NCBI GenBank assembly: GCA_937967505.1
Contig: CALCJM010000008.1
Coordinates: 1-64,000 of the forward strand
Source: an uncultured Pirellulaceae bacterium
GTDB lineage: Bacteria > Planctomycetota > Planctomycetia > Pirellulales > Pirellulaceae
Length of the DNA: 64,000 nt
Direction of reading: 5' to 3'
The position numbers and the translations under genes were made by a program. This document shows, piece by piece, positions 3,099-21,186 of the stretch (positions are counted from its first letter, which is position 1; every line of letters starts with the position of its first letter). The notes under the pieces are model-generated. The model was not told where the DNA came from, made no database searches, and worked only from the letters and a program-made list of their open reading frames with translations.

Positions 3099-5630
3099 TC
3101 ATCTTGCGGTGGCCGTTTCGCAGCTTTTGATCTCACTCTCGCGTCTGACCAATCCTGCCACGCTGATCAACGAGTGACGTGTTTCCCGGCACAATCCGAT
3201 CAACTCACCGGCAATTCTTGAGATGTCTTCTTCCGAATACCCTTCACTGACAGCCTCTTCAAGATCTATCGTGGCATCCACCAGTTCGTGAGCAAACACT
3301 TTGCTGGCCTGCGTTCGCAGAACTCGACTGGTCTCACGCAGCGCTCCCAAGTCTCCAGCTTCCAATGCCTGATAGACAACCTCAATATGACTGCCAATGG
3401 CAACCGCAGATCGCGGATCGACGCTCGTGGAAACTTCGGGCTGCGTGACTTCAGCACCATGGTCTTTCACATGTTGAACCAGACAGCGGACGATATCTTG
3501 GTCAAATTGCTCTGGGCTGCACTTTAATAACTCTGCCAGCGCTTCGGGAATCAGCATTCTTTCCCGATAGACGCGCCCGTTGACCAGCGTATCGAACACA
3601 TCACAGACATAGAGAATTCTTGACATCACAGGAATGTCAGCGCCAAAAACCGTTTGTCCCTTGCGGGCACTCGACCTAGAAAAACCGTAGTGCCGACATT
3701 TGAGGATCTGGAAAATTTCCGCCGAATCAATGGTGTTTTGCACAATCTGCAACCCAATTTCATCATGACGATTCATGATCTGCCATTCCTGCTTGGTGAG
3801 CGTATCCGTTTTGTACAAAACGGAATCCGGTACGCCTATCTTTCCTACATCATGCAGCAGTGCCGCGACCTCCAAACGATAGAGATCCTTTCGATCCAAA
3901 TAGCTTTTGCCAATTTCGACCGCCAGGTTCGCCACACGAATCGAGTGGTTGGCCGTTTCATGACATCGAAATGACAAAGACGACAGCAGACCAATCACGG
4001 CAGAATATTCCGCCTCAGACTTGATCTTTTCGATGACCACGTCACGGGCTTCTGCTTCCAGTTCGGATTCGGCAGGACACTGATCAAATCGTACCACGCG
4101 ATTTCGACCGCTGCGTTTGGCTGCGTAGAGTGCTTGGTCGGCCTGGTCCAGCAAGTGCTGTTGATCCATGGCCTTGAACTGGCGGTTGGAAAAACCAACA
4201 CTAATCGTGACAACTGTATCATCGACAGGGGACGACTCGATCGCTTCTCTGATCTTGTGCCCGACCGCCAACGCCTGTTCGAGTTCCAAGTCGCCAATCA
4301 ACACAATGAATTCTTCTCCGCCGTAACGACAGACAGTACCCAGATCCCCGACCGCGTCGCGGATCTTTTCAGCCACATGAATCAACACCTGGTCTCCGAA
4401 ACTATGTCCATGCGAATCATTAATCCCCTTAAAATGATCCACATCCAACATCAGTAGCGACAAGTCTTCCGGGGTCGACTGTTCCCACGTTTTATCGAAG
4501 ATATTGAAAAACTCACGTCGATTAAAGCATTTCGTCATTGGGTCATATGACGCCAGAAAGGTAAGCTGTTCGTTCTGTCGTTCGACCGTCTGAACGGTTT
4601 TCTCCAATGCATCACGCTGCGTTTCAATTTCGGTCACGTTATCGAAACTAATCAGAGCACCTCGACACGCCCCTTTGTTGGACAGAATGGGCGATGCATT
4701 CACCGAAAATCGGGAAACACCAGCCCGGGTTTTCAGGGCGACCAGTTGGCCGACGATGGCCTTTTTCGTTTCCAGACACTGATCCCACGCGAAACCCGGA
4801 AGCGTTTCGGCATCAGTCAGTTGCCAATCAAAGTCCTCCAGCTTTTTACCCACCAAGGTTTTGGGAGATAGCGGGTTCGCGCCCCGGCCCTGATTGATAA
4901 TATGACAGAACGCACCATTGGAATGTGCGACAACTCTATTGGGCTTCAGCAGCACAACACCCTCGGTCAGGGTATCCAGTGCCGAACGAACACGTTGAGG
5001 AATCCCGTCTGTAGGAGTCAGCGTACGAAATGCATTACTGAACAGCACCCAGCATGCCAGCGAAACGGTGGCAGACAGAAACAAAAGTGCGATCCAGCTT
5101 TTTTGGAAAAAACCATAGGTCGTTTCCGTTGGTGAATTTCTGAAATAGATATTCAGAGTCCCCCAAACCCGCCCATTTTTATGGATATCACATGACGCCA
5201 GTGTGCGACGCGCGAGATCTATCGACGATTGCGTTGCAGAATCCGCTGCGTTATTCGATTTGCTGGCAGTTTGCAGGAGTTTTTTTCCCTGGCGGCTGGC
5301 CACCGTGATCTGGTCAATGCTGTCGTTCAGCCGGAAACAGGTTTCAACCGTCTCTTTTAAACGCACCAAGTTTTTCCCCTTACCAACGACAGAACCGCGT
5401 ACCACCGACGAAAGAGCCGCCGCAACCGATTGCGTCGTGTGTAGTCGCGCGTCGCGTTCTAGGGTGTCGCCGTTGGGGAGCAGTTGTAGCTGTAGCGCAA
5501 TCCAAGCCATCACTCCGGCGAGAAGTCCGGTCGTGATCGCAAGGCGCGCAGCTGTACGTAAATGGGGCATTATTTTCCGTCGTCTGACAGGACGTCGAAG
5601 CCTGATAAATGAGTTTCTTCCCCGAAACAT
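3099..5630 (-). CDS. Membrane PAS-GGDEF-HD-GYP-like c-di-GMP signalling protein
   Basis: 843 residues. A transmembrane helix at about 28-48 and another at about 177-200 flank a periplasmic sensor region. A PAS-like domain (about 215-335) and a short coiled coil lead into a GGDEF domain whose GGEEF signature is at residues 437-441, so diguanylate cyclase activity is plausible. The C-terminal domain is HD-GYP-like: the HD pair is H593-D594 within LLHDVGKIG, followed by RHDEIGLQI and RILYVCDVFDTL. The HHExxDGxGYP motif is replaced by KCRHYGFSRSS (H647), so c-di-GMP phosphodiesterase activity is doubtful. A tail of about 100 residues follows. The gene is divergent from the TolC-like gene. An alternative start is the ATG at residue 21, just before the first membrane helix. 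Confidence 0.88.
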   Translation of the reverse strand: MFRGRNSFIRLRRPVRRRKIMPHLRTAARLAITTGLLAGVMAWIALQLQLLPNGDTLERDARLHTTQSVAAALSSVVRGSVVGKGKNLVRLKETVETCFRLNDSIDQITVASRQGKKLLQTASKSNNAADSATQSSIDLARRTLASCDIHKNGRVWGTLNIYFRNSPTETTYGFFQKSWIALLFLSATVSLACWVLFSNAFRTLTPTDGIPQRVRSALDTLTEGVVLLKPNRVVAHSNGAFCHIINQGRGANPLSPKTLVGKKLEDFDWQLTDAETLPGFAWDQCLETKKAIVGQLVALKTRAGVSRFSVNASPILSNKGACRGALISFDNVTEIETQRDALEKTVQTVERQNEQLTFLASYDPMTKCFNRREFFNIFDKTWEQSTPEDLSLLMLDVDHFKGINDSHGHSFGDQVLIHVAEKIRDAVGDLGTVCRYGGEEFIVLIGDLELEQALAVGHKIREAIESSPVDDTVVTISVGFSNRQFKAMDQQHLLDQADQALYAAKRSGRNRVVRFDQCPAESELEAEARDVVIEKIKSEAEYSAVIGLLSSLSFRCHETANHSIRVANLAVEIGKSYLDRKDLYRLEVAALLHDVGKIGVPDSVLYKTDTLTKQEWQIMNRHDEIGLQIVQNTIDSAEIFQILKCRHYGFSRSSARKGQTVFGADIPVMSRILYVCDVFDTLVNGRVYRERMLIPEALAELLKCSPEQFDQDIVRCLVQHVKDHGAEVTQPEVSTSVDPRSAVAIGSHIEVVYQALEAGDLGALRETSRVLRTQASKVFAHELVDATIDLEEAVSEGYSEEDISRIAGELIGLCRETRHSLISVAGLVRRESEIKSCETATAR

Positions 5631-5865
5631 AAGTTTCCATTAAAGCCAGACGGGACTGTAGCCAAGATTTCACCAAAAAAACTGATCGCCGCTCATCTGA
5701 CAGCAGCCGGGTATGCCCTGGGAAAGTTTGACGATTATTCCGATTACTCCACTGGACCACCAAAATTCCTTTGCGAATGCGGTTGAACGACTCCCGATGC
5801 TCCGATTAAACGGCGATGGTAAGTCTTGAGGGTTGTACTACCTTTTTGAATTGACGGAGTTACAC

Positions 5866-8800
5866 GTGCGCTTTTATCGTTCTACATTGCTGGCAGTACT
5901 GATGGCAGCCTCCACTTTAGGAGGTGTCAAAACTGTCGGGGCGCAGTCATTTGACTACCCCCAGAACAGCCAGTCGCTGTTTTCACGTTGGGCTGAAAAC
6001 CAAAAATCAACGACCACGATCTCCTCTCCGATTCAGCAGACTGCCCCCACTGCACCGGAGGGCAGATTTTCGTTGAAACGGCTGATCGGTGAGAAAACCG
6101 CGATCACTTCCGGCTTGGTCGAGCGGATCAAAGCTTTTGACAACAACAAAACGTTCGCGCTGGCCCCCCGTAACCGCAACGCCTCCCAAAACCAACAAAC
6201 CGCTTGGGCACAACCCGCAGGGCGCGAGCAAATAGAGCGATCGATTTTGGAGGTCGTCGAAGAGCAACCTGAAATTGATACCAACCTGCCTCGGTATCAA
6301 TTGGACGCCCCCACTCCGATCCCCGGCAACGCTCGTCCCTTTGCTCCATCACAACAAACGTGGAATCGCGGACCGCAAACCGCAAACGCACCGCAGGCAA
6401 CCAGTCAGACAAACTCAAACCCGGTTGCCCCCAACCAGACACGCTCAAACCAAGGTATTGGTGTTGGCAACCACCGTACCGCAGCACACCCGCTGTCCAT
6501 TAACGATGCTAAACAACGTGCCGACCAGATGTCCACGACACAAGCGATGCTACAGCGGCAACAGATGCGTGAAGGAACAGTCCCCCGCAACATGAGTGCT
6601 ACAGCACCAAAACGGATTGACCAAAATTCCTTCGCAAGCGAATTCAACAAAGCCTACCGGTACATCAATGCCTCCGGCCCAAACAACACCGCCTCGACGG
6701 ACCAACCTGCCGCGCGCGTGGCACAACAGTTCGGCCAACCAGCCGTCAGAAGCAACTCCATCCGGGCCTTCAACACTTCACATCGCACCACTGATCCTGC
6801 CACATCAAGCAGTGCCGATGCCGATTTTGAACTTATCCGCGACGACGATGTCAGTAACCTCGACTTGGAATCTTTTCCACCGGATGATTCCGGTGAAATC
6901 GCACCCGGAGAATTCACCCTTCCCGATTTGAACGCTCCCGCACCTCACGAGGCTCCGTCATCGTTCGCGCCACCAGAGAAAATGACGTTTGACATTCCTG
7001 CAGATGTGCTGCCTGCCGAACCGGACGAAGACGAAACGCCCCCGACCCAACCAGACGCGCTGCCTGATCTAATACCAGACGCGCTGCCAGAAATGGCGTC
7101 CGACGCACTACCCGTGCTCCCACCAGAGGCACCTGCACACACACAGAACATACGTCCCGAGCCCCCCTCAACAAACGCAAACAAGCAGTTCGCACCAGTT
7201 GAAACAGCGCAGACGTGGACACCGCCAGTGGTTTCCGGAAATCCGGTTCCAATGATGACGCCGCAAACGAATACTCCAGTGCTTCCGACGGTGATGGATT
7301 CATCGGATGACCAGGTCGCGTGGTGGAAAAATTTGGTGGCCAAACCACTTCACCCGGAAAACAATACGCGTCCCGTCGATACCAACGGACTGGTTTTGGA
7401 AGCGTTACGCAGTTCCCCCCGCATTAAAGCCGTCAGCAAAACGCCACTGATTCGCGAATTACAAGTGGTTGAAGCGGATGCCGATTTTGACCCCGTGACG
7501 TTCCTGCAATCCCAGTTCCAGGATCGCGTCGATCCTGTCGGCAACACGCTGACAACCGGCGGCGAGCCTTTCCTGAAGGACAATATTTTAACTTCCGAGG
7601 CGGGCATTCGCAGGCGGCTTCGCAACGGTGCCGACTATCGCCTCTCACAACGCATTGGTTTCCAGAACAGCAATTCCAACTTTTTTACCCCCCAGGACCA
7701 GGGGACCGCAACGCTTGCCCTGAACGTTACACAACCGCTGCTGCGTGGCCGTGGGCAATACGTCAATCAAGCCCAGATTTTGATCGCTCAATCTGCCGGC
7801 GGCGCCGCATGGGATACTTTTAAGGCCGACCTTCAAGAAGAACTCGAAGGCATGGTCACGTCTTACTGGGATCTTTACCTGCAACGCAGCATCTATCTGC
7901 AAAAGAAACGCAACGTGCAACGCGGTCAGGTGATGCTGGATCGACTTAAAGGTCGCCAAGGCCTTGATTCACTGCCCGCGCAGATCGCACGCGCCCAATC
8001 AGCGGTCCTGACGCGTCGGACAGAACTGGCAAACGCTTTCCGCGACGTACGCAACGCCGAAACAGAAATCCGCCGACGTATCGCCGATAAAAATTGGCAG
8101 GCCAGCCAGTCGATCGAATTATTGCCGGCCGAAATACCATTCGCCCAGGCGACTGACTTGGAGCTTGAGCAGGTGGTTTACGCCGCTCTGGAGAACCGGC
8201 CCGAAATCTCCGAAGTCATTCGCCGTATTCGCGTTGCGGGCGTGCAACGCGACGTCTCGGTCAACGAACTGTTGCCTCAACTTTCACTGTTGATGGGTGC
8301 TTACGTCAGCAGTCTGCGAGGCGATACGGGCATCCTGAACGCTTTTCAGGATCAGTTTGGTCAAGTCAAACCGGGTTACAGCGTCGGGCTGGAATTTGAG
8401 TTGCCGTATCGCAACCGCGCCGCTCGCAGTCGCCTGCAACAGCGCAACCTACAGTTCAAACGTCTGCAAAACGAACTGGAAAGCGTAATACAAAACGTCA
8501 TCGCGGAATCTCAGGTTGCCACACGGCAGGTCAGTTCTGCCTATGAAACACTCAACGCGGCCAAAGCTGCTGTCGTGGCCGCACGGGCTGACCTGACTCA
8601 GAACGAAAAACGGTGGGAGTCGTTTGCACTGATCGAGGGCGATCTTGCCGACGGACAGTCGCCGACAACCGTGTTAGACCAATTGCTTGACTCGCAGGAG
8701 CGTCTGTCACAGGCGGAAAACGTCTATGCTCAGGCAGAGCAGGAGTTAAAAGTTGCCGAGGTTTCGCTGCAACGAATTATGGGGACACTATTAATACACC

Positions 8801-9195
8801 AGCAGGTTGATTTCAGTCGCACGGTAAAGTGCGACACGCCATCGATTCACATTAACAAACGCGATAGTCAATCCCAGAGAGTTTTCGACGACTACCCGGC
8901 ACAGCAACCGTTGGTCCCAACACAGGCGATCCACCACGCTGCTCCTCACATGGGTACGAGTGCCGTTGAAAATGCTCCTAGCTTTCGACAGACGAAGACG
9001 GGGCACGTTGATTTCAGTCAGATAACCCCCGGGCAAATGGCGACCGAACCAAACCGGCACAACCGGGTATCCCACGCCGATTGGTCTCGTCAGGCATGGC
9101 CTGCCCCCACCACCCCCCAACCCCAAGTGCAACCGACAGGCTACCCGTCACAACACACTACCCAACAGGCTGATTTTGGATACCCGGCAAAGTGA
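5866..9195 (+). CDS. TolC-family outer membrane efflux protein with long low-complexity N- and C-terminal extensions
   Basis: The chosen GTG at 5866 has a GGAG six bases upstream and starts a signal peptide ending near VGAQS; a TTG at 5833 in the same frame has no such support. Residues of about 30-490 are low-complexity, rich in Pro, Gln, Asn and Thr, with acidic DALP-type repeats near 390-420. The outer membrane factor domain spans about 500-975: helical, with the usual internal duplication, and with LVLEALRSSPRI, VTQPLLRGRG, ENRPEI and GLEFELPYRNR. A further tail of about 130 residues is His/Gln/Pro-rich. Such channels form the trimeric outer-membrane exit of RND, ABC or type I exporters; no partner lies beside it here. 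Ordinary TolC proteins are 430-500 residues, so more than half of this protein is extension. Confidence 0.85.
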   Translation: MRFYRSTLLAVLMAASTLGGVKTVGAQSFDYPQNSQSLFSRWAENQKSTTTISSPIQQTAPTAPEGRFSLKRLIGEKTAITSGLVERIKAFDNNKTFALAPRNRNASQNQQTAWAQPAGREQIERSILEVVEEQPEIDTNLPRYQLDAPTPIPGNARPFAPSQQTWNRGPQTANAPQATSQTNSNPVAPNQTRSNQGIGVGNHRTAAHPLSINDAKQRADQMSTTQAMLQRQQMREGTVPRNMSATAPKRIDQNSFASEFNKAYRYINASGPNNTASTDQPAARVAQQFGQPAVRSNSIRAFNTSHRTTDPATSSSADADFELIRDDDVSNLDLESFPPDDSGEIAPGEFTLPDLNAPAPHEAPSSFAPPEKMTFDIPADVLPAEPDEDETPPTQPDALPDLIPDALPEMASDALPVLPPEAPAHTQNIRPEPPSTNANKQFAPVETAQTWTPPVVSGNPVPMMTPQTNTPVLPTVMDSSDDQVAWWKNLVAKPLHPENNTRPVDTNGLVLEALRSSPRIKAVSKTPLIRELQVVEADADFDPVTFLQSQFQDRVDPVGNTLTTGGEPFLKDNILTSEAGIRRRLRNGADYRLSQRIGFQNSNSNFFTPQDQGTATLALNVTQPLLRGRGQYVNQAQILIAQSAGGAAWDTFKADLQEELEGMVTSYWDLYLQRSIYLQKKRNVQRGQVMLDRLKGRQGLDSLPAQIARAQSAVLTRRTELANAFRDVRNAETEIRRRIADKNWQASQSIELLPAEIPFAQATDLELEQVVYAALENRPEISEVIRRIRVAGVQRDVSVNELLPQLSLLMGAYVSSLRGDTGILNAFQDQFGQVKPGYSVGLEFELPYRNRAARSRLQQRNLQFKRLQNELESVIQNVIAESQVATRQVSSAYETLNAAKAAVVAARADLTQNEKRWESFALIEGDLADGQSPTTVLDQLLDSQERLSQAENVYAQAEQELKVAEVSLQRIMGTLLIHQQVDFSRTVKCDTPSIHINKRDSQSQRVFDDYPAQQPLVPTQAIHHAAPHMGTSAVENAPSFRQTKTGHVDFSQITPGQMATEPNRHNRVSHADWSRQAWPAPTTPQPQVQPTGYPSQHTTQQADFGYPAK

Positions 9196-9415: not shown

Positions 9416-12400
9416 CTATTTCTCTTCGGGCCGCTCTTTGATCTGGTTCAGCATTTTGTCGTAGCTGCGATGCGTCTTCTTCATCGCCTGCATCAGATCG
9501 TCAGCCTCAGGGAGGACTTCCGACAGTTTGATAATTGGGTCCACCCATGTTTGCAACACGCGAAACTGGTCACGCATCACATTCAGGAAGATGCCCGGCA
9601 CCTTGTTCACGACCTCGATCTTCCGATTCTCTACCGGCCCTCCTGATCCCGTCCCCGCAATTCCACCGTAGGCCATGATCGATTTCATCTCGGCCAAAGT
9701 CTTGTTGAAATCCGCCAGTTCCGCCACCGCTTTGCCAATTTGCTCCATCGTCGCGGCCTCAAAATCATGTGTCCCGGGCTGGGAGGTCAACTGCTGCACG
9801 CCTTTGTCCAAAGTACCACGAATCTCGGCTAGGCCTTCACTGAAACCGGTCAACTGGGCAATCACCTGGCCCAATGGTCCATCATCGCCAGCAGCCCCAA
9901 GCATTAAATTGCGTTGGAAAGTGCGTTTGATGCCATTCCAACGTTCCAGGTCTTCCCCATCAAGTTTCCCGGTCAAATCCTGTAACTTCAGCAGGTTTGC
10001 CTGAGCCCCGGATGTCAGTGTCTGAGCCTGATTCAGGTAGTGGGCGTCGATCAAAGTATCCAGTTCTTTGTCGTTCATTATCGGAGCGATCTGTTCAGCG
10101 ATCTTGTTCATATCACGGTACGATCCCTGCAATTTAAACGCCGGTTCAGTCCGATATTCATCAGCCTGAGCTGCCGAATCGATATACTCACGATTGACTT
10201 TCAGAATAACATCACGTGCCACCAGTAATTTTTTCATTACTGCGACAAACTCGTTGATCTCCTCAATCGAATAGCTTCCCTCTAGCGTCTGAGGCTGGTT
10301 GTCACCGACCTCCGCCATCTTGATCACGGTGTAAACGTCTTTGCGGGAACGCGCGTTCAGCTTTGCCAATGTCGAATTTGATGTCAGACAGTTCTCAAGG
10401 TAGCTAAGTTCAAACGATCCGGCGTTATCACCAATCACGTCACCCAGATTGTAAGTGTCGGCGCGAGAGGCCAGCATGTCCGGGATCTGGAATTTCTCAC
10501 CTGATTCGGTGTACGGATTTCCCGCCATTACCACAGCCACCTTACGACCACGCAAATCATAAGTCCGTGTCCGTCCGTTGAAGACACCCTCAATGCGACG
10601 GGTCCCATCACACAAAGAGATGAACTTTTGCAGAAACTCAGGATTGCAATGCTGGATATCGTCCAGGTAGATCATCACATTGTCTCCCATCTCAAGTGCA
10701 AGATTCAGCTTCTTGACCTCATCCCTTGCGCCAGCATTGGGAGCTTCCGCAGGATCGAGAGAGGTAACCTGATGACCGATGGCGGGGCCGTTAATCTTCA
10801 TAAACGTAATGCCCAGCCGATTGGAGATATATTCCATCAACGTCGTCTTGCCATACCCCGGTGGCGACACCAGCAACAGCAGCCCCATAAGATCGGTGCG
10901 TTTATCTTCCCCAACGACACCAATTTGTTTTGCGAGGTTCGCACCGACCATCGGCAGGTAGGTATCGTTGATCAACTGGTTTCGCACAAACGACGTCAAC
11001 ACGCGCGGTTTGAATTCATCCAGTTTCAACTGGGCCCGCCGTTGATCGACGACATCCTTCTTCAGCTGGACGTAGGACTCAAATGAAGGCACCGTTGTGG
11101 TTGCAAATCTTTCAAGCCGAACCATAAATTCGTTGTAGTCAAAATGGTACGTCTTGCCTTCGACGCGCGGATGATCTCCCAGCAATCCCTGCACATCACA
11201 GTCAGGTTTCACCGTGGATGCGACACGCTGGTCCAGGCTGCCATCCAGCAAAAGTGCGGCAACCTCATCGACGTACCGCTGGTCCAGTCCTTCCTGCGAC
11301 ACAAACGAGGCAATCCACTGTTTGGCGGCCAGGAATCGCGCCGCCACGGGCAGCGGGACATCGTTGATCGCTTCAAACTGCGCTGTCGCCTGTTGCTTCT
11401 TCAGAAACTGCATGAAGGATTCTGCGATCGAATGTGCACCGGCGCTACAGATCAGTGCCAGATCGCCCGAGAACTGGTCAAACAGATAGTTGGCCGATTC
11501 GTCCCCGAATCGCGCATCGCCAAAATGTTGAACTTCATTAACGGCCACGATTTCATCTCGCAACTGTTTCACATAATGATGGCGATCTTTGATCTCTCCG
11601 AAAACGGCACGGGCGGAACTTAGCACGGCCAGTTTGTTTTTCCAGACCTGTCCCCATGCGGATTCACGATTCCCGACATCCTGAGTGGTTTGTGTTTTGT
11701 AGTTCCAAAATACGATCGCTAGGGCGCGTGATTGAGTTGAGTATTTCAATAATCCCAGATCCCGGTCCAGTTCCAATAACGGACGCAGAATCAACGCCGC
11801 GTCGTGGTCATGAACGCCCTTGATGTATCCTTCGGTGTACCTAGCAGCCATGAACTGTTGTCCCAGCGGCAACAGTTCGCCCTGTGGATCGGCAGCCCCG
11901 GATTCCAAGGTCTTTGGAACAGTGATTTCACCGCGTTTGATCGCTTGCAGCACCAGATACGCAAGGTATTCCCCACGGTACACATCCCGATTTTCAGACA
12001 CCACCGGCTGATCCCACACCGGTCTTGTCGCGTTGAGCTCCTCGTGTGTGATCGGCTCAAAATAGTTCGTTCCACTTAAATGAAAGAACATGTTTCCGTC
12101 TTTAATGACGGTTGTCAGATCCAGCGGCTGTGTGTTGACCGAAAACTTATGTTTGCCGAACTGAATCACGTTCTGGCCATCTACGTACAGTTCGTTTTTG
12201 TCACGCAACTGACGAATGGTGTCCTCGCGCACCGTCTTCAGGCGGCTTTGAACATCGTCTACCTTGACCGATTCGCCCATCGTGGCCAGTTGGTCTACGA
12301 TATCGCGCACTTTGTCGATCATCAGATCCGACGCGAAATAGCTATGGATCTCGTCAACGGATTCAAAATTGGAAACACGTGATCTCACGCCTTTAATGAT

Positions 12401-14752
12401 GCGCTCGGAAGCCTGCATCAGGGCCGTGGCCCGTTTGTTGCGTGCCTCCACCAATTGCAGTTTCTTGGTGTCGAACGCTGCGTAGATCTCATCACGCTTC
12501 TCGGCCAACTGGACAATAAATTCGTCGAATTCGGCGAACTTCCCCTCCAGTTCCTCCACCTGCACCATCATTTTTGTCAGATATTCATCACAGCGCTCGG
12601 GGGCATCGCAGACATCCAGATAGTTGACCACCGCCTGGGAGACCAGTTTCAACTGTGAATTGAATTCAGCGGCACCTTCAACGGACAACAACGCTTGCGA
12701 TTTCTTTTTTAACGTGGCGCGCGTTTGATTCAGCGACGAATAGATCGACGAAATATTGTCGATGATGCGAGTGCGTTCGTTGGCGTCGTCGATTTTCAAA
12801 TTGCTGACGATCTCGATCAGCATTTCCAGTTCGCCGGCCCCCACAGCGATCTCTTCATCCAACTTCCGCGCCTCAACGCCAGTGGACAGCGACTCAATTT
12901 GCTCCATCTGGGCAGTAACACGATCGGAGTAGGGCGTTAGCGCTCCCTCCTTCAGCAGGAATTCCACACAGCGGTTGGAAAGGCGTTGCGCATTGTCGGC
13001 GACCTTCGTTTCCAACGCTGCGACATCTTCGAGATTGACGTATTTCAGTTCTTTTAGCGTGATCACCTGACCACGAACCGCGCGCAATTCGGCCAGCGAC
13101 CGCACAAAATCATCAATGTGTGCGAAATGACGACTGGTTGCTTTCATCACCGCATCGGTGGCGGCCTTGGAGACGGTTGAAAATTGCCCGGCAGTGCTTT
13201 TGCGGACGCGGACCACTTTGTCATACTCATCGACCGCAGCGGTCGCGGCGGTGCGAATCGATGTCAGCGGTTGGGCCAGCTGAAAGGTGTTCTCATCGGC
13301 CAGCCAAAAATAAGAATCGAGAATGTCCGTCGTTTTCTTGACTAGGTCCACATACAGATTGGTATATGAATCATCCTGATCAATCAGGTTAAGCACTTCG
13401 TGCGATTCTGACATCGCCCGAACGATTTCCTTGTTGCCAATCTTGTAGACATACGAGTCCGTTTGTTCGCCAAGTTGGAAATCTTCGCCAACGTATGGAG
13501 TTTGCCAGACCTGCATGGCATGGTGCTTTTGCGGGTCTTCGTCAGATTTGAAATAGATCAGCTGCCCATTTTCAAAAATGGAAAAACCGCTACACACGAT
13601 CGGGGTCGCAACCTCCTGTTCGATCATGTTATAGGACAGCAACACCTTTTGGCCGGTGGCAGGATTGTAAAACACGTACAGGTAGTCTTCACCGTTACTG
13701 GACGCGACCCGCCGCTCGAATTTCAGGTCCGAAATATTGCTTTCAAAGGTCTTGTAGACACCCGTCTGAAGGTAGTAACCATTGGAAAAAATCAGGCCGT
13801 GATCTTCAGGTAAAAACACACAGGCGTCAGCGATCGAATCCAGCCGGCGGGCCGTTTGCGTTTTTTCATTAAACACCAAATAGCGATAGGCATTCTCTTT
13901 AAACGGCTTGATCTTCAACAGGATGATATTGCCGACGATCGAGTAAAAGTACTCGGCATCGTCCAGCGTTTGGTCCGGGTCATCGACGGGTTCTTCGTAG
14001 ATTCCTGAACCATCATCGGTGTTGTCCTCGATCTTGATTGTGAGGTCGCCGCCAACGGTTTCTACAAATACGCGATCATCGATCGAAATATGCGGGTGCT
14101 CGCCATCGCGATGCAGGTCGCGGTGAGTTCGTACCCATTTGAAATCATGCTGAGGCGGCAGCTTGATTTCGTGATCGCTGCGGTTATCGATATATTTCAG
14201 CGTACCACCATCGATCAGGAACTTGAACGCTTTGGTATCATCGTGGCTTTTTCCGACCTGAAAGACTAGGTACAGGTGTGGACCGGCCAGATGAAAACGC
14301 TGAAACCGCGTGTCCTTGTAGTATTTGTACAGCCCCGAAAAATCTGTCATAAACGCGCTGTCGTCAAACAGCGACAGCGGTTGTTCGTGCATTGCTCCGT
14401 CAGAAAATCGGAATACACCAAAAACATCCGCAAGTTCGGTAACCGTTTTCAGGCCCATGTGGACGTTATACCCAAAGACGAACTGGTCGCCGATAGAGAC
14501 GATATCCTGCGCCACACAGTTATTGGCCGTCGTGATGCGTTGTGTCGAAATCAGCTCGGTCGGGATAGAACCAAAGACCTGGCGTCGTTCATCATTAAGA
14601 AAACCGATGCGTTCGCGCAGATCTGCCGCAAAGGATTGCAGACGGTTTTGGATTATCTCGTATGTGCCACGTTCCAACTGCGGTGCATCCGGATCGTCCG
14701 TTTGTGTACGTATCTCCGGGGATTTATCAGATTGTTCAGGTTCGTTTGACAT
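9416..14752 (-). CDS. Very large DUF3686-type AAA ATPase ('DNA repair ATPase'), partner of flotillin
   Basis: 1778 residues. The N-terminal ~470 residues are beta-rich and aromatic. Residues of about 480-840 contain long coiled coils. An AAA-type NTPase lies around 1285-1450, with Walker A PPGYGKTT (near 1295-1302), Walker B MIYLDD (near 1356-1361) and a sensor-like VVMAGNPYTESGEKF stretch. The C-terminus is again coiled coil. The layout matches the large ATPases annotated as DUF3686 or 'DNA repair ATPase', often encoded beside flotillin-like yqiK genes. It is the last gene of the yqiJ-like/flotillin/ATPase operon, starting 79 bases after the flotillin stop. A role in DNA repair is only a database label; the context suggests a membrane-associated complex. 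Only one intact Walker A/B set was found. Confidence 0.82.
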   Translation of the reverse strand: MSNEPEQSDKSPEIRTQTDDPDAPQLERGTYEIIQNRLQSFAADLRERIGFLNDERRQVFGSIPTELISTQRITTANNCVAQDIVSIGDQFVFGYNVHMGLKTVTELADVFGVFRFSDGAMHEQPLSLFDDSAFMTDFSGLYKYYKDTRFQRFHLAGPHLYLVFQVGKSHDDTKAFKFLIDGGTLKYIDNRSDHEIKLPPQHDFKWVRTHRDLHRDGEHPHISIDDRVFVETVGGDLTIKIEDNTDDGSGIYEEPVDDPDQTLDDAEYFYSIVGNIILLKIKPFKENAYRYLVFNEKTQTARRLDSIADACVFLPEDHGLIFSNGYYLQTGVYKTFESNISDLKFERRVASSNGEDYLYVFYNPATGQKVLLSYNMIEQEVATPIVCSGFSIFENGQLIYFKSDEDPQKHHAMQVWQTPYVGEDFQLGEQTDSYVYKIGNKEIVRAMSESHEVLNLIDQDDSYTNLYVDLVKKTTDILDSYFWLADENTFQLAQPLTSIRTAATAAVDEYDKVVRVRKSTAGQFSTVSKAATDAVMKATSRHFAHIDDFVRSLAELRAVRGQVITLKELKYVNLEDVAALETKVADNAQRLSNRCVEFLLKEGALTPYSDRVTAQMEQIESLSTGVEARKLDEEIAVGAGELEMLIEIVSNLKIDDANERTRIIDNISSIYSSLNQTRATLKKKSQALLSVEGAAEFNSQLKLVSQAVVNYLDVCDAPERCDEYLTKMMVQVEELEGKFAEFDEFIVQLAEKRDEIYAAFDTKKLQLVEARNKRATALMQASERIIKGVRSRVSNFESVDEIHSYFASDLMIDKVRDIVDQLATMGESVKVDDVQSRLKTVREDTIRQLRDKNELYVDGQNVIQFGKHKFSVNTQPLDLTTVIKDGNMFFHLSGTNYFEPITHEELNATRPVWDQPVVSENRDVYRGEYLAYLVLQAIKRGEITVPKTLESGAADPQGELLPLGQQFMAARYTEGYIKGVHDHDAALILRPLLELDRDLGLLKYSTQSRALAIVFWNYKTQTTQDVGNRESAWGQVWKNKLAVLSSARAVFGEIKDRHHYVKQLRDEIVAVNEVQHFGDARFGDESANYLFDQFSGDLALICSAGAHSIAESFMQFLKKQQATAQFEAINDVPLPVAARFLAAKQWIASFVSQEGLDQRYVDEVAALLLDGSLDQRVASTVKPDCDVQGLLGDHPRVEGKTYHFDYNEFMVRLERFATTTVPSFESYVQLKKDVVDQRRAQLKLDEFKPRVLTSFVRNQLINDTYLPMVGANLAKQIGVVGEDKRTDLMGLLLLVSPPGYGKTTLMEYISNRLGITFMKINGPAIGHQVTSLDPAEAPNAGARDEVKKLNLALEMGDNVMIYLDDIQHCNPEFLQKFISLCDGTRRIEGVFNGRTRTYDLRGRKVAVVMAGNPYTESGEKFQIPDMLASRADTYNLGDVIGDNAGSFELSYLENCLTSNSTLAKLNARSRKDVYTVIKMAEVGDNQPQTLEGSYSIEEINEFVAVMKKLLVARDVILKVNREYIDSAAQADEYRTEPAFKLQGSYRDMNKIAEQIAPIMNDKELDTLIDAHYLNQAQTLTSGAQANLLKLQDLTGKLDGEDLERWNGIKRTFQRNLMLGAAGDDGPLGQVIAQLTGFSEGLAEIRGTLDKGVQQLTSQPGTHDFEAATMEQIGKAVAELADFNKTLAEMKSIMAYGGIAGTGSGGPVENRKIEVVNKVPGIFLNVMRDQFRVLQTWVDPIIKLSEVLPEADDLMQAMKKTHRSYDKMLNQIKERPEEK

Positions 14753-14771
14753 GCAAATTTCGTGGCACAGA

Positions 14772-14796
14772 CTGCCGGCCGGTGACGGGCCGGCAG
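14772..14796. other. Intercistronic GC-rich hairpin between flotillin and ATPase genes
   Basis: A perfect 9-bp stem, CTGCCGGCC (14772-14780) with GGCCGGCAG (14788-14796), has a 7-base loop. It lies 36-60 bases after the flotillin stop and 20 bases before the ATPase start codon. No U-run follows on the minus strand, so an RNA-stability or translation-modulating role fits better than termination. Function is inferred. Confidence 0.45.
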
Positions 14797-14831
14797 GGAT
14801 GGTGATTTGATGGATGGAGGCGGTGGCGTGA

Positions 14832-16862
14832 TCACTGCGTCACAGCAGCAATCACCTGGCCGGCATTTTGCGTGGCGACACCGGCCCGATTGGCCGCTCC
14901 CATCATCGACTGAAGATTCTTCAACACTGCGGCATCAGTAGTCAATCCCATCATCTGCCCAATCAAAGCCGCCACAGACAGATTCTTCATGTCTTCGGAG
15001 GTGATCCCGAACATGTCAATGTAACGGCTGACCTCGTCTTTAAACTGGCCTGGGTCCCCGGTAAAGAAGGTGCCCTTCACATCTGTCAGAACGTTGCTGT
15101 TGTCCACCAGACGGTCAACCTGTTTTCCGGCAGTAATTGAATTGACGATACTGTCGAAGAATTTATTGTCTCCACCGACGATGTCAATGTTTGCATTGGT
15201 CAGCGATTCGGCAATCATCGCAGCCTGAGCTTCGGCGATTTTTTGCTGGGCCGTGATGGCTTCCAGTTCGACTTCTTTTTCTTTGTTCAGTCGGAGTTTA
15301 AACTCTTCGTGCTCTTTCCCGACACCATCAAACAACTTCATCGCTTCGGCTTTCTCGGTGATGCCTTTGGCGTCGGCCTGAAACTTCATTTCCGCTACTT
15401 TCGCTTCGGCCGTTCCTTCTTTTTCGATTGCTGCGGCTTTTTCCATCGTGACCTGTGCCTCGGCCAGTCCCGGGGCGGCGGCTTCAGCCTGAGTCGCTTC
15501 GGCCAGCATTTTCTTGGCTTCGGTGGATTTCTCGGCTGCGGTGCGATCGGCTTCGGCGCGGACGACGATCGTTTCAGCCTGTAAATCAGCCGCCTGCTTC
15601 TCGGCCTCGGCTTGCTTGACTTCCTGCACCAACTTCTGTTCGGCCAGCTGTTCCGCGGCAGTCACTGCCACCTGCTTCTTACGCTCGGCAGCCGCAAACT
15701 CTTTGGTGTCTTTGATCTTTTCCTCTTCTTCAACCACGGTTCGTTCGACCATGACGCGATCCTTGATCACATCCTGAATGTTTTTCTTTTCGACTTCGAT
15801 CGCTTTTTCTTTGTCGATCTCTGCAAGTGTCACAACGCGCTCGCGTTCGGCAACTTCCAGGCCACGGTCCTTGGCGACGCGTTCGGTTTCTACCGCATCG
15901 GTTCGTTCCTTGCTCTTGGCGGCCACAATGATCGCCCGCAAGCGATTTTCTTCGGCCACCGCGATTTCCTCATCGGCCTGAATCCGCGCCAGTTCGGCAC
16001 GTTGACGTTCCTGTTCCTTGACCACACTTGCTTCGGCTTCCTGACGCGCCGTGATTTCGGCAATCTCGCGTTCCTGTTTCTCTTCGGCATCAACTTGTTG
16101 ACGTTCCAAAGCAAGAATCGCCTCACGGGCCTCGACATCCTGCTTCTTGAGTGTCTTCTCTTTCTCACGCGTGATGCTGTTTGCCAAAGTCACTTCCTTG
16201 GCCGTCAGATCGGTGATCTTTTTGATACCTTCGGCATCCAACACGTTGTTTGGATTCAGTTTTTCTAGGTCGGTTTGTTCCAGATAGTCAATCGCACAAT
16301 CATCCAGAACATACCCATTGAGGTCCTTGCCGATGACATTCAAAATCTGCTCGCGGAACTCCTCACGCGAATTGTACAGTTCGACGAAATCAAACTGCTT
16401 TCCAACGGTCTTGAGTGCCTCAGAGAACTTGGGTTCGAACACCTGCCGCAGGGAAGCAATATCCGACGCGCGTTTACAACCAAGAAAGTTCGCCACCCGT
16501 TTCACATCATCCATTTCTTTGTTGACCCGGACGAAGAAGGCAACCTTGATGTCGGCACGGATGTTGTCCTTGCAAATCAGACCATCTTCACCGCTGCGAT
16601 CAATCTCGATGCGTTTCACCGAGATGTCCATCATTTCGACAATGTGCAGCACCGGCACAACCATCTCTTTGTCGAAACTGACATGCGTTCCACCGGAACC
16701 CGTCCGGATCAACGCGGTCCCTTGCGGGACCTTGCGCAGGCACTTGATGTAAAAGGAGACATAGCCAATACCACAGGCAGCAGCAACGACTACGATCCAG
16801 AAAACGATCTCCAGAAAAGTGCTTTCGAAAATTGCATTGGCTAAAAACATGGTGCCGCTCAT
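14832..16862 (-). CDS. Flotillin-family SPFH membrane scaffold protein (YqiK/FloT-like)
   Basis: 676 residues. One N-terminal membrane helix (about 17-38), then an SPFH/band-7 domain (about 45-215: KVPQGTALIRTGSGG, DNIRADIKVAFFVRV and LNPNNVLDAEGIKKI). A long Glu/Ala/Lys-rich coiled coil (about 215-560) is followed by a flotillin C-terminal oligomerisation region. This is the normal bacterial flotillin layout; such proteins assemble in membrane microdomains. It starts 4 bases after the YqiJ-like stop, showing tight co-transcription, and precedes the large ATPase. The start at 16862 is ATG; an alternative ATG at residue 5 is possible. Strong antisense frames opposite the coiled coil are composition artefacts. 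Confidence 0.92.
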   Translation of the reverse strand: MSGTMFLANAIFESTFLEIVFWIVVVAAACGIGYVSFYIKCLRKVPQGTALIRTGSGGTHVSFDKEMVVPVLHIVEMMDISVKRIEIDRSGEDGLICKDNIRADIKVAFFVRVNKEMDDVKRVANFLGCKRASDIASLRQVFEPKFSEALKTVGKQFDFVELYNSREEFREQILNVIGKDLNGYVLDDCAIDYLEQTDLEKLNPNNVLDAEGIKKITDLTAKEVTLANSITREKEKTLKKQDVEAREAILALERQQVDAEEKQEREIAEITARQEAEASVVKEQERQRAELARIQADEEIAVAEENRLRAIIVAAKSKERTDAVETERVAKDRGLEVAERERVVTLAEIDKEKAIEVEKKNIQDVIKDRVMVERTVVEEEEKIKDTKEFAAAERKKQVAVTAAEQLAEQKLVQEVKQAEAEKQAADLQAETIVVRAEADRTAAEKSTEAKKMLAEATQAEAAAPGLAEAQVTMEKAAAIEKEGTAEAKVAEMKFQADAKGITEKAEAMKLFDGVGKEHEEFKLRLNKEKEVELEAITAQQKIAEAQAAMIAESLTNANIDIVGGDNKFFDSIVNSITAGKQVDRLVDNSNVLTDVKGTFFTGDPGQFKDEVSRYIDMFGITSEDMKNLSVAALIGQMMGLTTDAAVLKNLQSMMGAANRAGVATQNAGQVIAAVTQ

Positions 16863-16866
16863 CAGA

Positions 16867-17592
16867 CTAATTCTCCCACTTGGTTAATTCGACCAGGAAA
16901 GTGTTGTGTTCATGATCGTAAGAAATGATTTTGGCTGCGTCTCCCTTGACCAGTTTCTGCCCTTTGACAGTTCTGGCGTTGTAAACAACCTCCGGCTCAT
17001 TGTCCGGTTTGATTTCGATTTGCCCAAACGTTTCGTTGACCGCGCTGGTAGTGACACGACCAATGGCACCAATTAGATGACGGCGCGAGGTGTCTTCCGG
17101 AGCAGATTTCGCAAGGACTTTTGCCATTGGCCGGACGGCAATTCTCATTACCGTCAGACCAATGATCGTATTGGGAATCACCCACAGCAGAGATCCACCA
17201 AAGGTTTGTGCGGGGTTGAACAGGTGGTTCAGGATTAAACTGGAGCCCCAGTAACCAAACACAAACGTTGACCCTACAATCGCCACCGGCACATCGGTCA
17301 GATAGAAAAATTCGAAAATCCCTCGTAGGACTCCGGACGCTGCGGACGCGGTAGAACTTCCACCATCGATGTCCGCACCACCGGCGGTCGCTAGATTACC
17401 GTCGATTTCAATATCCGCGTCCATGTCCATATCTATATCCAGACCGACATCTGCATCGACATCCACGTCGATGTCAAACATATCCATTCCAACCACGCCG
17501 AAAACCATCATCGCCCAATACAGCAGGACGACGATCATCGCTGCCGTGGCGAGAAAGTTCGCTTCGGAAAAGAGTTGTTGGAAGAAATCCAT
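16867..17592 (-). CDS. YqiJ/NfeD-like membrane protein with OB-fold tail (DUF1449 type)
   Basis: I start it at the ATG at 17592 (MDFFQQLFSEAN, 241 residues); an in-frame TTG at 17688 would add 32 residues that do not look like this family. A membrane helix at the N-terminus is followed by an unusual Asp-rich stretch of alternating Asp and Val/Ile/Met, then two or three more membrane helices, and a C-terminal OB-fold-like domain (about 170-241: LIGAIGRVTT, GQIEIKP, VKGDAAKIISY). YqiJ/NfeD proteins are standard partners of flotillins. It is the first gene of the operon with flotillin and the DUF3686 ATPase. Confidence 0.82.
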   Translation of the reverse strand: MDFFQQLFSEANFLATAAMIVVLLYWAMMVFGVVGMDMFDIDVDVDADVGLDIDMDMDADIEIDGNLATAGGADIDGGSSTASAASGVLRGIFEFFYLTDVPVAIVGSTFVFGYWGSSLILNHLFNPAQTFGGSLLWVIPNTIIGLTVMRIAVRPMAKVLAKSAPEDTSRRHLIGAIGRVTTSAVNETFGQIEIKPDNEPEVVYNARTVKGQKLVKGDAAKIISYDHEHNTFLVELTKWEN

Positions 17593-18041
17593 GTTGCGGA
17601 TGGTTTGATAATTTGAATTGGGTAAAAGGTGATATGCGCTGCACGGAAAAGTTCCGGTGACAACAACCGACAACAACCCCGACAACAACTAATAGAGAGT
17701 ACGGAAAACGATAGGTCACGGATAAATCGATGCCGTCTAGGGTCTCCAGTTTTCGAGATTTTGGGTTGCGATTGTCCGTTTTGGACAATTATCAGCCCTC
17801 GAAGTGGGCTTATTACCCATTTATGAGGCAGATTCAGGCTCTAGTTCGGCAGAAGGTACGAAATATTGGAACAATCCAGCGTAGATAAGCAAAATCCGCT
17901 ACCCCGACAACAAGAGGCCTCCAAAGCGTTGACTGGAGCCAACAGGCTCCCAAACGATTGGTCAGCAGTGCCAACAAAAACGAATTCTTCCTGAAATTTA
18001 GTGGCTCAGGGTTGGTCGCGACATCAGTGTCTCACGCGCCA
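17593..18041. other. Intergenic region upstream of the flotillin operon
   Basis: About 450 bases without a convincing gene, lying upstream of the YqiJ-like gene and downstream of the unknown gene at 18042. It contains a perfect dyad at 17771-17789. No terminator with a U-run was seen. Confidence 0.6.
17771..17789. promoter_or_regulatory. Perfect inverted repeat, candidate operator upstream of flotillin operon
   Basis: ATTGTCC (17771-17777), 5-base spacer, GGACAAT (17783-17789). It is about 180 bases upstream of the YqiJ-like start codon. The size suits a dimeric repressor site or a small RNA hairpin; the binding protein is unknown. Confidence 0.3.
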
Positions 18042-18810: not shown

Positions 18811-21186
18811 TCAGTACTTGTCGGTGCTTAAATGCATGGAGGTTAGCGTCAACCCCTTATGCGACTTGAGCTGAATCGTGTTGGTTGCCTGCAACAGTTT
18901 CACTGGAACAGGCACGTCTACCGTGGCGAACAAATTATTCATTTCTCGCGCCCATTTGACGCTCAGTTTAAATGGCTTGCCATTTAGCGTCCCTTCCAGT
19001 TTGCGTTTCAATCCGCCAACGCGGTGCAGGCCGACACGCAGCACACATTTCTTTACATCCTCATGGCCAAGGACATGGATGGTAAATTCCCGATTGGTCA
19101 ACGCATCATGCTTCACTGCCGTTTCCGGGGCAAACCAGTAAGCGCGGTTAACGGTTCCTGCGATTGCTGTTGGGGCGTCAAGTTCAATCGTGACAACCGT
19201 CGTTTCTTCCACATCGACCTTGATTGCGCGAGAATCGCTATAGGTCACCGCAGGGTCAAATTTGACCTCGCCGTCCTGATAGTACAGACGCTTTTGCGTC
19301 ACAGATTTTGCGTTGATCGATTCGCCTGTGATCCGGCCGAGATCAACCTTCAATTGCCTGCCGCCCATGTTGGTTAACGCGACGTGAATTAAATTACCAC
19401 GACGCACGGCCGTCACATCAAGAAACGGACGCTTATATTGAACAGGCAACCGACGACCGTCAAAGTCACGCCACAATTCGAAAAAGTGATGCACCGGAGT
19501 CTTTTCGAATCCTTCGATGGGGCCGTTATTGGGACTGCCCTGAGCGGGGATGAATGCGGCATCGCCACTTTGCGAATTCCATGGAATATTCAAAAATACA
19601 AACGGCACCGCCAGTTCGATTTCGTGCGGTCGGCGCAGTGATTTGTGCATAAAGGCACTGAAGGACCTCAATCGCAGCCAATAATCGCTTGGCCCGCGCC
19701 CCGGTTGCAGCGAACCACATTCCGTGATCAGAATTGGTCGCACGTTATCAATACCCCGCATGTGCGCCTGAAACATATCCAGAATCGCTTCCATCGATCC
19801 CAGCAAATATCCCGAGTAATCACTGCCACGCCGTTCCCACGCTCCGATGGTGCCGCGATTTTCATAAAAATGGTGCGAGTAAAAGTCAAGTTTTCCTTTG
19901 GTTAGATCGATGAACTTGCGTTGTTTTTCATACAATCCAAAATTATCAACCTGCAACTGCATCCACGCAGAACTCGGTCCGCCAAGTTTTGCCTCCGGGG
20001 ATTTTTGATGGACAGCATCGGCGATCTGCGAATGCAGGTCGGCCAGCAATGCCCAAGAATCAACGTCCTTTCTCCAGTGGTAATCCCACTCGGCTTTGAT
20101 CGTTGATTCATTTTTAACTTCGTAGAACGGCGTCGCGCGGCCCGAGTCGTTGATCTGGTCCGCAATGTATGCCGCGACCAGTTCTGCTGCGGCATCAAAA
20201 TATTCGACCTTCGGCGTACCGCGTCCGACCTGCGGAATCGACATGAAATCCGGGTAATGATCGAAACAAACCGCGTAGTCAATGTCGCGAAACACAGGAA
20301 TGGTGTTCGGCGGGAACACGCGCGTTTTATGTTGATTAAAAAAAGACAGATCGGCATGGCCCGGACGCGCTTTGTCCTCGGTCAATTTCGGCTCTTTGGC
20401 GGAAAATCCCTTGACCAGCGAGTATTGCAGTTTGTTGATTTGACGGCCAGGCAGGAAGTTTCGATCCGCCGCCCACTGTTCCAAGCTGGGGTGTGGCATA
20501 CCGGGCAAGGCATAGAAGCGAAAGAATTTCTGGCGTTCCAAATCAACATGCCCCTCGATCGACAGTTCGTGCTGGAGATCGAGCTGCACTTTCACCGTTT
20601 CGCGTGGATGTTCCGCACCCAAATTGCGGTAGGGTAAGTCATCAAATGTGGTTTTCAATCGGCCCTGCGAATTAAAGGCAACTTCCGTGATGACGGCGTT
20701 GCCCTGGGCGTGCGCTGCGATCACCATCGGGGCCATGTCAGCTGACGGCGTCGGCAGCGCAGGCATTTGCACGCGATAGATCCCCGATTCTTTGGTGCTG
20801 ACATGCATGTGACCGTCCGAGGAATACGGCAGTAACGTCATGCCCCCAATGCGGTCCAGATTCTCGCCCCGAATCAGGAAGTAACGAAACATGCTGGCGA
20901 CACGCTGAGCGCCAGGAGGTAATTCAATCTTGAAATCACCTTCCACCTCAACCCGTTTTTTCAACAGAATGATTTCGTCCAGTTTTCGACTCGCGCCCTT
21001 GCCCTTGTAAATTGCCTGATGCTTTCTGGCAAATTCACCAAACAGAAATTCGTGTGCAGCTTTGCGTTCGACACCCTCGGCGCTGAGTTTAATGCGCTGT
21101 GCGTGGGCCGCCGATAAAAAACCGCCCCCCAACACAATGATCAGGCAGAGTGTAAAACGCAGGATCCGGCGAGAGGAAAATATCAT
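18811..21186 (-). CDS. Secreted glycoside hydrolase, GH86-like (beta-agarase/porphyranase type)
   Basis: 791 residues with a signal peptide ending near SAAHAQ. Residues of about 290-600 form a TIM-barrel hydrolase region that resembles GH86. The expected acid/base glutamate follows Asn in EVKNES (E360) and the nucleophile is in ITECGS (E489). Flanking stretches include FDHYPDFMS, KLGGPSSAWMQ and FYSHHFYE. The C-terminal ~190 residues are beta-sandwich-like. GH86 enzymes cleave red-algal galactans (agarose, porphyran), which fits a marine planctomycete. No sulfatase or other polysaccharide-degradation cluster is adjacent. The exact substrate is inferred, and assignment to a neighbouring clan GH-A family cannot be ruled out. 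Confidence 0.72.
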   Translation of the reverse strand: MIFSSRRILRFTLCLIIVLGGGFLSAAHAQRIKLSAEGVERKAAHEFLFGEFARKHQAIYKGKGASRKLDEIILLKKRVEVEGDFKIELPPGAQRVASMFRYFLIRGENLDRIGGMTLLPYSSDGHMHVSTKESGIYRVQMPALPTPSADMAPMVIAAHAQGNAVITEVAFNSQGRLKTTFDDLPYRNLGAEHPRETVKVQLDLQHELSIEGHVDLERQKFFRFYALPGMPHPSLEQWAADRNFLPGRQINKLQYSLVKGFSAKEPKLTEDKARPGHADLSFFNQHKTRVFPPNTIPVFRDIDYAVCFDHYPDFMSIPQVGRGTPKVEYFDAAAELVAAYIADQINDSGRATPFYEVKNESTIKAEWDYHWRKDVDSWALLADLHSQIADAVHQKSPEAKLGGPSSAWMQLQVDNFGLYEKQRKFIDLTKGKLDFYSHHFYENRGTIGAWERRGSDYSGYLLGSMEAILDMFQAHMRGIDNVRPILITECGSLQPGRGPSDYWLRLRSFSAFMHKSLRRPHEIELAVPFVFLNIPWNSQSGDAAFIPAQGSPNNGPIEGFEKTPVHHFFELWRDFDGRRLPVQYKRPFLDVTAVRRGNLIHVALTNMGGRQLKVDLGRITGESINAKSVTQKRLYYQDGEVKFDPAVTYSDSRAIKVDVEETTVVTIELDAPTAIAGTVNRAYWFAPETAVKHDALTNREFTIHVLGHEDVKKCVLRVGLHRVGGLKRKLEGTLNGKPFKLSVKWAREMNNLFATVDVPVPVKLLQATNTIQLKSHKGLTLTSMHLSTDKY

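Follow-up and report, generated by a model that had tools for sequence, protein, structure and literature searches.

Co-inheritance of a YqiJ-like membrane protein, a YqiK-type flotillin and a giant DUF3686 AAA+ ATPase in planctomycetes and other bacteria

The coupling of an SPFH scaffold to an AAA+ motor is exemplified by the HflKC–FtsH and prohibitin–m-AAA systems, while AAA+ proteins of the MoxR family usually partner with VWA-domain proteins, and one of them, NorQ, acts on a membrane enzyme. The regulation of FtsH by HflKC is the subject of a published account (PMC13086221, consulted in part). Operons that combine a Band-7/flotillin protein, a propeller-AAA+ ATPase and a YqiJ/YuaF protein were reported by Ravi et al. 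2024 (PMC11237479), and the portion of that work used here also describes abbreviated operons, which lack PspA and are suggested to work with PspA encoded elsewhere. YqiJ/YqiK operons had been described by Hinderhofer et al. 2009 (PMC2636767), in the main text of which the word ATPase does not occur. The E. coli yqiJ-yqiK pair encodes a homologous small membrane protein and flotillin in the same order as the locus considered below, but no ATPase gene follows yqiK. The three-gene cassette offers a defined handle on the role of bacterial flotillins, and no functional study of this cassette was found in the open-access literature searched.

The window analysed here is a stretch of 64,000 nucleotides from a Pirellulaceae-like planctomycete, whose genome (5.03 Mb in 183 contigs) contains a single DUF3686 match. 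It carries genes for a YqiJ-like membrane protein, a YqiK-like flotillin and a 1778-residue ATPase (Table 1), and their location on the minus strand confirms the co-directional set claimed in an earlier note on this DNA. The 4-base spacing given in the same note holds for the YqiJ-like/flotillin junction but not for the flotillin/ATPase junction, which measures 79 nt. For the YqiJ-like gene, the TTG at 17688 given in the list of open reading frames was taken as too early a start, and the ATG at 17592 was preferred.

Table 1. Features of the three-gene locus, with positions in the 64,000-nucleotide window
Feature	Position	Strand	Basis or remark
YqiJ/YuaF-like membrane protein gene	16867..17592	-	241 aa from ATG 17592
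YqiJ-like/flotillin intergenic gap, 4 nt	16863..16866	-	sequence
YqiK-type flotillin gene, 676 aa	14832..16862	-	
Flotillin/ATPase intergenic gap, 79 nt	14753..14831	-	holds perfect 9-bp GC-rich hairpin
Giant DUF3686 AAA+ ATPase gene, 1778 aa	9416..14752	-	
Predicted beta-propeller, ATPase residues 66-418	13499..14557	-	structure model and fold searches
Long helical/coiled-coil region, ATPase residues ~435-853, DUF7902 at 604-686	12194..13450	-	Pfam, model
AAA+ core, ATPase residues ~1287-1485	10298..10894	-	invariant residues, model, fold searches

The three kinds of gene are those of the operons of Ravi et al. 2024 (PMC11237479), whose ATPase is likewise read, in the part of the text consulted, as an AAA+ protein with an N-terminal coiled coil and propeller; the operon type, which the earlier note had proposed as an undescribed system, was therefore already on record. 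In having the three genes together, the window matches the abbreviated operons as they are presented there, and it differs from the large operon type in that its PspA is encoded on another contig. Of the CesT/Tir-PspA dyad of the large operons, the PspA part was looked for among the flanking genes and was not found. To the 2024 description, as far as that part of it extends, the present analysis adds counts of linkage, trees that ATPase and flotillin share, a C-terminal segment of the flotillin, a junction hairpin, a structural comparison of the motor and an enrichment in PspA.

The operon is flanked by genes for a GGDEF/HD protein, an efflux protein, an unassigned ORF, a porphyranase-like protein and a DUF4340 protein. 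The GGDEF and HD-domain protein (3099-5630, minus strand) is probably a cyclic-di-GMP enzyme, and the outer-membrane efflux protein (OEP; 5833-9195, plus strand) has a long proline-rich N-terminal part. The porphyranase-like protein (18811-21186, minus strand; 791 aa) carries the beta-sandwich and C-terminal porphyranase domains (PF18206, PF18040) and is perhaps an algal-polysaccharide enzyme.

The YqiJ-like protein comprises membrane helices, an acidic stretch and, by homology to YqiJ, a C-terminal OB-like end. Its family profile matched E. coli YqiJ with an hhalign probability of 97.2 and an hmmsearch value of 1.3e-14 (a two-protein search), and the solved YuaF domain with E=0.53 only. At E≤0.1, the Pfam domain YqiJ_N was detected in 17 of the 33 members of the family; in the window copy nothing exceeded a Pfam cut-off, YqiJ_N scoring 10.9 bits against a cut-off of 23.

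The flotillin consists of one N-terminal hydrophobic segment (approximately residues 19-37), an SPFH region, a long coiled coil and a C-terminal segment (approximately residues 510-676). Its homology to E. coli K-12 YqiK (BLASTP E=3e-50 in a single comparison, 30% over 500 columns; hhalign 4.3e-38) spans the membrane segment, the SPFH region and the coiled coil. No Pfam domain, Band_7 included, exceeded its cut-off in the window flotillin, and Band_7 was detected at E≤0.1 in 9 of the 46 members of the family. Profiles of the front, coil and C-terminal parts were each derived from 60 to 68 ATPase-linked rows. The front-part and coil profiles both match YqiK and all 12 sister flotillin loci that lack the ATPase, whereas the C-terminal profile (window residues 510-676) matches only two of these 12 loci (21 and 28 bits), its match to 68 of 68 ATPase-linked flotillins being given by construction. 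On YqiK the C-terminal profile gives E=2, which is no match, and the window flotillin is thus placed in a distinct subclass related to YqiK rather than classed as an established orthologue. As judged from these profiles, the C-terminal segment is mostly confined to ATPase-linked copies. It is possibly a docking site for the ATPase, although it may be just a feature of the ATPase-linked flotillin clade.

The ATPase was found in 30 of 199 genomes of the planctomycete phylum, in 26 of 60 genomes of relatives and in 71 of 397 genomes of the class (overlapping samples), and in none of 14 control genomes. It also occurs in 12 plasmid records, including two chromosome-sized ones from Proteus and one from Nonomuraea; sampling beyond planctomycetes consists of such records and is uneven. 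Neighbourhoods were compared at 64 loci, comprising the window, 23 named relatives, 29 other genomes of the phylum and 11 of the 12 plasmid records. The named relatives are planctomycete MAGs, the closest belonging to Pirellulaceae (83% in the best segment) and Mariniblastus (77%). Seven loci with less than 4 kb upstream were set aside, which left 57, among which close relatives were not thinned. Just upstream of the ATPase gene and on the same strand, the flotillin gene is present at all 57 loci and the YqiJ-like gene at 56, the sole exception being Streptomyces globosus, where none was found in the stretch before the flotillin. This layout is far beyond chance, and the neighbourhood survey proposed in the earlier note therefore yields a conserved neighbourhood across phyla. 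Since the ATPase has its own flotillin at every assessable locus, the motor's ATP hydrolysis, its client and its docking site become testable in several phyla. A fourth conserved partner was not found among the 64 loci: the largest neighbour family occurs at 10 of them, in differing positions, and most other families are limited to close relatives, with the exception of an AAA ATPase that lies near the operon at four of the 64 loci (L056, L069, L075 and L082).

The association extends to presence, absence and phylogeny. In the 199-genome sample, in which at most five flotillin candidates were scored per genome, a close flotillin (at least 690 bits against the family profile) is present in each of the 30 genomes with the ATPase and in none of the other 169. 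The trees of the ATPase and the flotillin, built for 43 loci by a quick search without bootstrap, share 27 of 40 splits, against no more than 2 in any of 500 label shuffles. Every one of the 25 flotillin splits with an SH-aLRT of at least 95 is also found in the ATPase tree, with no strong conflicts. The cassette is thus real, widespread and co-inherited. Such strict pairing with one flotillin subclass, together with compatible trees, would also be expected if the ATPase chiefly controlled the flotillin scaffold itself (its oligomer assembly, disassembly or spacing) without any other client. This reading is considered fairly unlikely, as E. coli YqiK and the sister flotillins exist without the ATPase, and a propeller with a long coiled coil seems elaborate for a single client. 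The sister flotillins (154-240 bits) were found in 12 ATPase-negative genomes, each with a YqiJ-like gene and without a DUF3686 match genome-wide, and inspection by eye of the neighbourhoods of the 10 loci listed revealed no common partner.

In each of the two trees, the non-planctomycetes account for three label changes, at matching places in the same three areas. These matching positions suggest that the whole cassette was transferred between distant bacteria as a unit. Apparent transfer of this kind, the copies in plasmid records and the patchy spread (30 of 199 and 71 of 397 genomes) might be taken to indicate an anti-phage or mobile-element defence system. Nevertheless, PADLOC gave only a weak match at the level of the P-loop (mad8, E 0.0044), and the PHROGs matches were likewise at P-loop level only; phage records contained no match, none of the 11 stretches of viral contigs that fitted a search pattern was confirmed, and no defence gene was recognised by eye among the recurring neighbours of the 64 loci. 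A role in defence is therefore regarded as very unlikely.

The ATPase has four Pfam matches over cut-off, namely DUF3686 (621 bits), DUF7902 (97), AAA (31) and AAA_5 (26), and the DUF3686 match (PF12458) is full-length, covering positions 1-448 of 448 against a gathering score of 25. The model of the N-terminal half (21 rows; mean pLDDT 79, pTM 0.55) shows strands from residue 66 to 417 followed by long helices. Compared with solved propellers, the strand region gave a best Z of 8.9 (rmsd 6.0, 222 residues aligned), a middling value on the tool's own scale, and the propeller is put forward as a prediction. The fold-search matches fall mainly on the propeller and the AAA+ core, and barely cover the coiled coils and the middle helical region (approximately residues 920-1270). 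In two relatives, open frames of more than 3300 aa gave the appearance of fusions; these frames cross stretches of 5000 N and were discarded.

Within the AAA+ core, Walker A (residues 1297-1303), Walker B (D1364 and D1365), sensor-1 (N1412) and a candidate arginine finger (R1430) are conserved without exception across 43 sequences, these being the ones kept at less than 85% identity from 52 full-length ones. A beta-hairpin is predicted at residues 1386-1399, preceding sensor-1. As the catalytic motifs looked for are kept, an energy-using partner of the flotillin is a fair reading of this protein. The top structural matches of the core are NorQ (Z 13.9, rmsd 3.3, 150 aligned) and CbbQ (Z 13.8, rmsd 3.1, 142 aligned), and modules of ClpC, ClpA, ClpB and dynein score within 1 Z of these. 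The predicted AAA+ domain thus appears structurally nearest to NorQ and CbbQ, yet it is tied with other AAA+ families, and MoxR is not singled out; Pfam AAA_3 was detected in one of 43 family members at E≤0.1. The window protein differs from NorQ and CbbQ in its low identity over the aligned part (16-18%), in being a giant fusion with a propeller and coiled coil, and in having a flotillin partner in place of a VWA protein, no VWA-domain match being found by Pfam among the three cassette proteins. It also differs from the motors of the HflKC–FtsH and prohibitin–m-AAA systems, as Pfam detected no protease domain in it and a simple hydropathy scan found no hydrophobic segment; the same holds for 48 of the 53 long members of its family.

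The label of DNA repair ATPase, which the earlier note suspected of being wrong, is carried by annotated records and by the Pfam title of PF12458; read literally, it would make the membrane-gene neighbours unrelated to function. There is weak P-loop similarity to RuvB and to a phage clamp loader, and chains of the DNA motors RuvB and MCM, along with those of Vps4, rank high among the Foldseek matches of the AAA+ part, which leaves the label a small probability. On the other hand, the Pfam and NCBIfam matches to RuvB remain below curated cut-offs and concern mainly the P-loop, no DNA-binding domain exceeded its Pfam cut-off, and the ATPase is strictly tied, across phyla, to a flotillin of the membrane, which counts against the label. 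DUF3686 is not named in the open-access literature searched, nor does the phrase 'DNA repair ATPase' occur with flotillin or PspA among the literature matches listed; neither the Pfam domain matches over cut-off nor the literature searched thus supported the label. Direct action in DNA repair is considered highly improbable, and the corresponding annotations of the DUF3686 family may mislead.

The reading that we favour, by a little more belief than doubt, is that of a non-proteolytic, ATP-driven protein-remodelling machine, which is membrane-bound on a flotillin scaffold and possibly acts on PspA-type polymers. It builds on what was observed, namely the order of the genes, their strict linkage, the compatibility of the trees, the intact motifs of the ATPase, the homology to YqiJ/YqiK and the (uncorrected) co-occurrence with PspA, as well as on the predicted propeller and AAA+ fold. 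The flotillin, with its single membrane anchor, SPFH region and coiled coil, would oligomerise together with its YqiJ-like partner into a scaffold at the inner membrane. On the cytosolic side, the ATPase, which has no evident membrane segment, would probably assemble into an AAA+ ring and dock on this scaffold, possibly via the C-terminal segment of the ATPase-linked flotillins; ring assembly is put forward conditionally because the model of the C-terminal half, which holds the AAA+ core, is modest (mean pLDDT 71, pTM 0.41). The propeller and coiled coil may serve in client recognition, and the motor would spend ATP on unfolding, moving or taking apart protein complexes associated with the membrane, which would not be degraded in the process; the likeliest clients are ESCRT-III-like polymers of the PspA type or membrane proteins that have suffered damage. 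Of the energy-using membrane machine suggested in the earlier note, strict co-occurrence across phyla and retention of the AAA+ motifs are upheld, whereas the machine itself is judged to be just on the probable side. In S. aureus, according to the part of the report consulted, flotillin keeps unfolded proteins stable without ATP (PMC11222466).

Against the remodelling machine, it can be held that the 79-nt gap and the frequent hairpin at this junction could mean separate expression of the ATPase. In the window the hairpin is perfect, and no T-run follows it. Hairpins stronger than those of shuffled sequences were found in 28 of 48 flotillin/ATPase gaps at p≤0.05 (23 at p≤0.01). The corresponding counts were 2 of 48 for flotillin coding sequence, 4 of 48 for coding sequence of the ATPase, 6 of 40 for sequence downstream of the ATPase gene and 5 of 46 for sequence upstream of the YqiJ-like one. 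Not included among the 48 gaps are 12 of 68 that fell short of 40 nt or exceeded 400 nt, and 8 short loci, of which five seem to duplicate loci that were kept; close relatives are still present in the set. The fairest control, formed by co-directional gaps elsewhere in six annotated plasmid loci, gave 5 of 15; the contrast with it is weak, and junctions between genes may often carry hairpins. It is therefore suggestive, though weak against that control, that the hairpin may set the amounts of flotillin and ATPase apart. Between positions 8900 and 18100 of the window, promoter-like sites (3, against 6.3 in shuffles) and terminator-like sites (10, against 11.3) are no more frequent than by chance; two of the promoter-like sites lie inside the flotillin gene on the minus strand, in a region with fewer such sites than shuffles.

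With respect to the client of the favoured remodelling machine, PspA_IM30 (PF04012) was detected in 24 of 30 ATPase-positive genomes compared with 37 of 169 ATPase-negative ones (Fisher p 1.6e-9, uncorrected for relatedness or genome size), at most 14 candidates being scored per genome. Over the curated cut-off, the counts are 23 of 30 and 30 of 169. Within this phylum, these counts agree with the suggestion, made in the consulted part of Ravi et al. 2024 (PMC11237479), that the abbreviated operons work with PspA encoded elsewhere. In B. subtilis an SPFH protein is required for membrane localisation of PspA, as stated in the part of that study consulted (PMC8581546). PspA was also found in 8 of the 12 genomes with sister flotillins. 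It lies near the operon in Hymenobacter, on pQBR103 and at loci L056 and L068, and in the first two of these it is encoded within the operons. The gene order at L068 is an FtsH-like ORF (by eye), PspA, PspA, YqiJ-like, flotillin, ATPase and PspA. In the genome of the window, the sole PspA_IM30 match (39 bits, cut-off 33.9) is located on another contig and is followed by an AAA ATPase.

The PspA enrichment, the PspA-containing operons of Hymenobacter and pQBR103, the three PspA genes of L068 and the PspA–AAA order in the window's genome are all in keeping with a special case of the remodelling machine, in which the giant ATPase, resembling Vps4, specifically dismantles PspA/ESCRT-III-like polymers at a flotillin platform. 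This narrower reading is possible but doubtful, as the AAA protein that neighbours PspA in the window's genome and at L056 is itself the better Vps4-like candidate, and six of the 30 ATPase-positive genomes have no PspA_IM30 match among the candidates scored. Near the operon of three of these six (L069, L075 and L082), the AAA ATPase has a coiled-coil protein beside it; the three coiled-coil proteins match one another but gave no match to Pfam PspA or to the PspA of L056. The most elaborate form of the proposal would be an obligate SPFH-AAA+ machine that differs from HflKC–FtsH, a raft-based analogue of Vps4, in which a giant propeller/coiled-coil AAA+ ring, docked at a dedicated C-terminal site of the flotillin subclass, disassembles PspA/ESCRT-III-like polymers and the hairpin sets the amounts of flotillin and ATPase apart; it is regarded as unlikely.

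Two minor observations concern the loci that encode PspA. Locus L068, with two PspA genes upstream of the operon and one downstream, belongs to a compact genome of 2.8 Mb. The PspA gene and AAA ATPase gene of the window's genome (L124, 4666-7410), the latter belonging to the same family as the ATPase near the operon at L056, L069, L075 and L082, come directly after genes that by eye are MoxR-, DUF58- and VWA-like.
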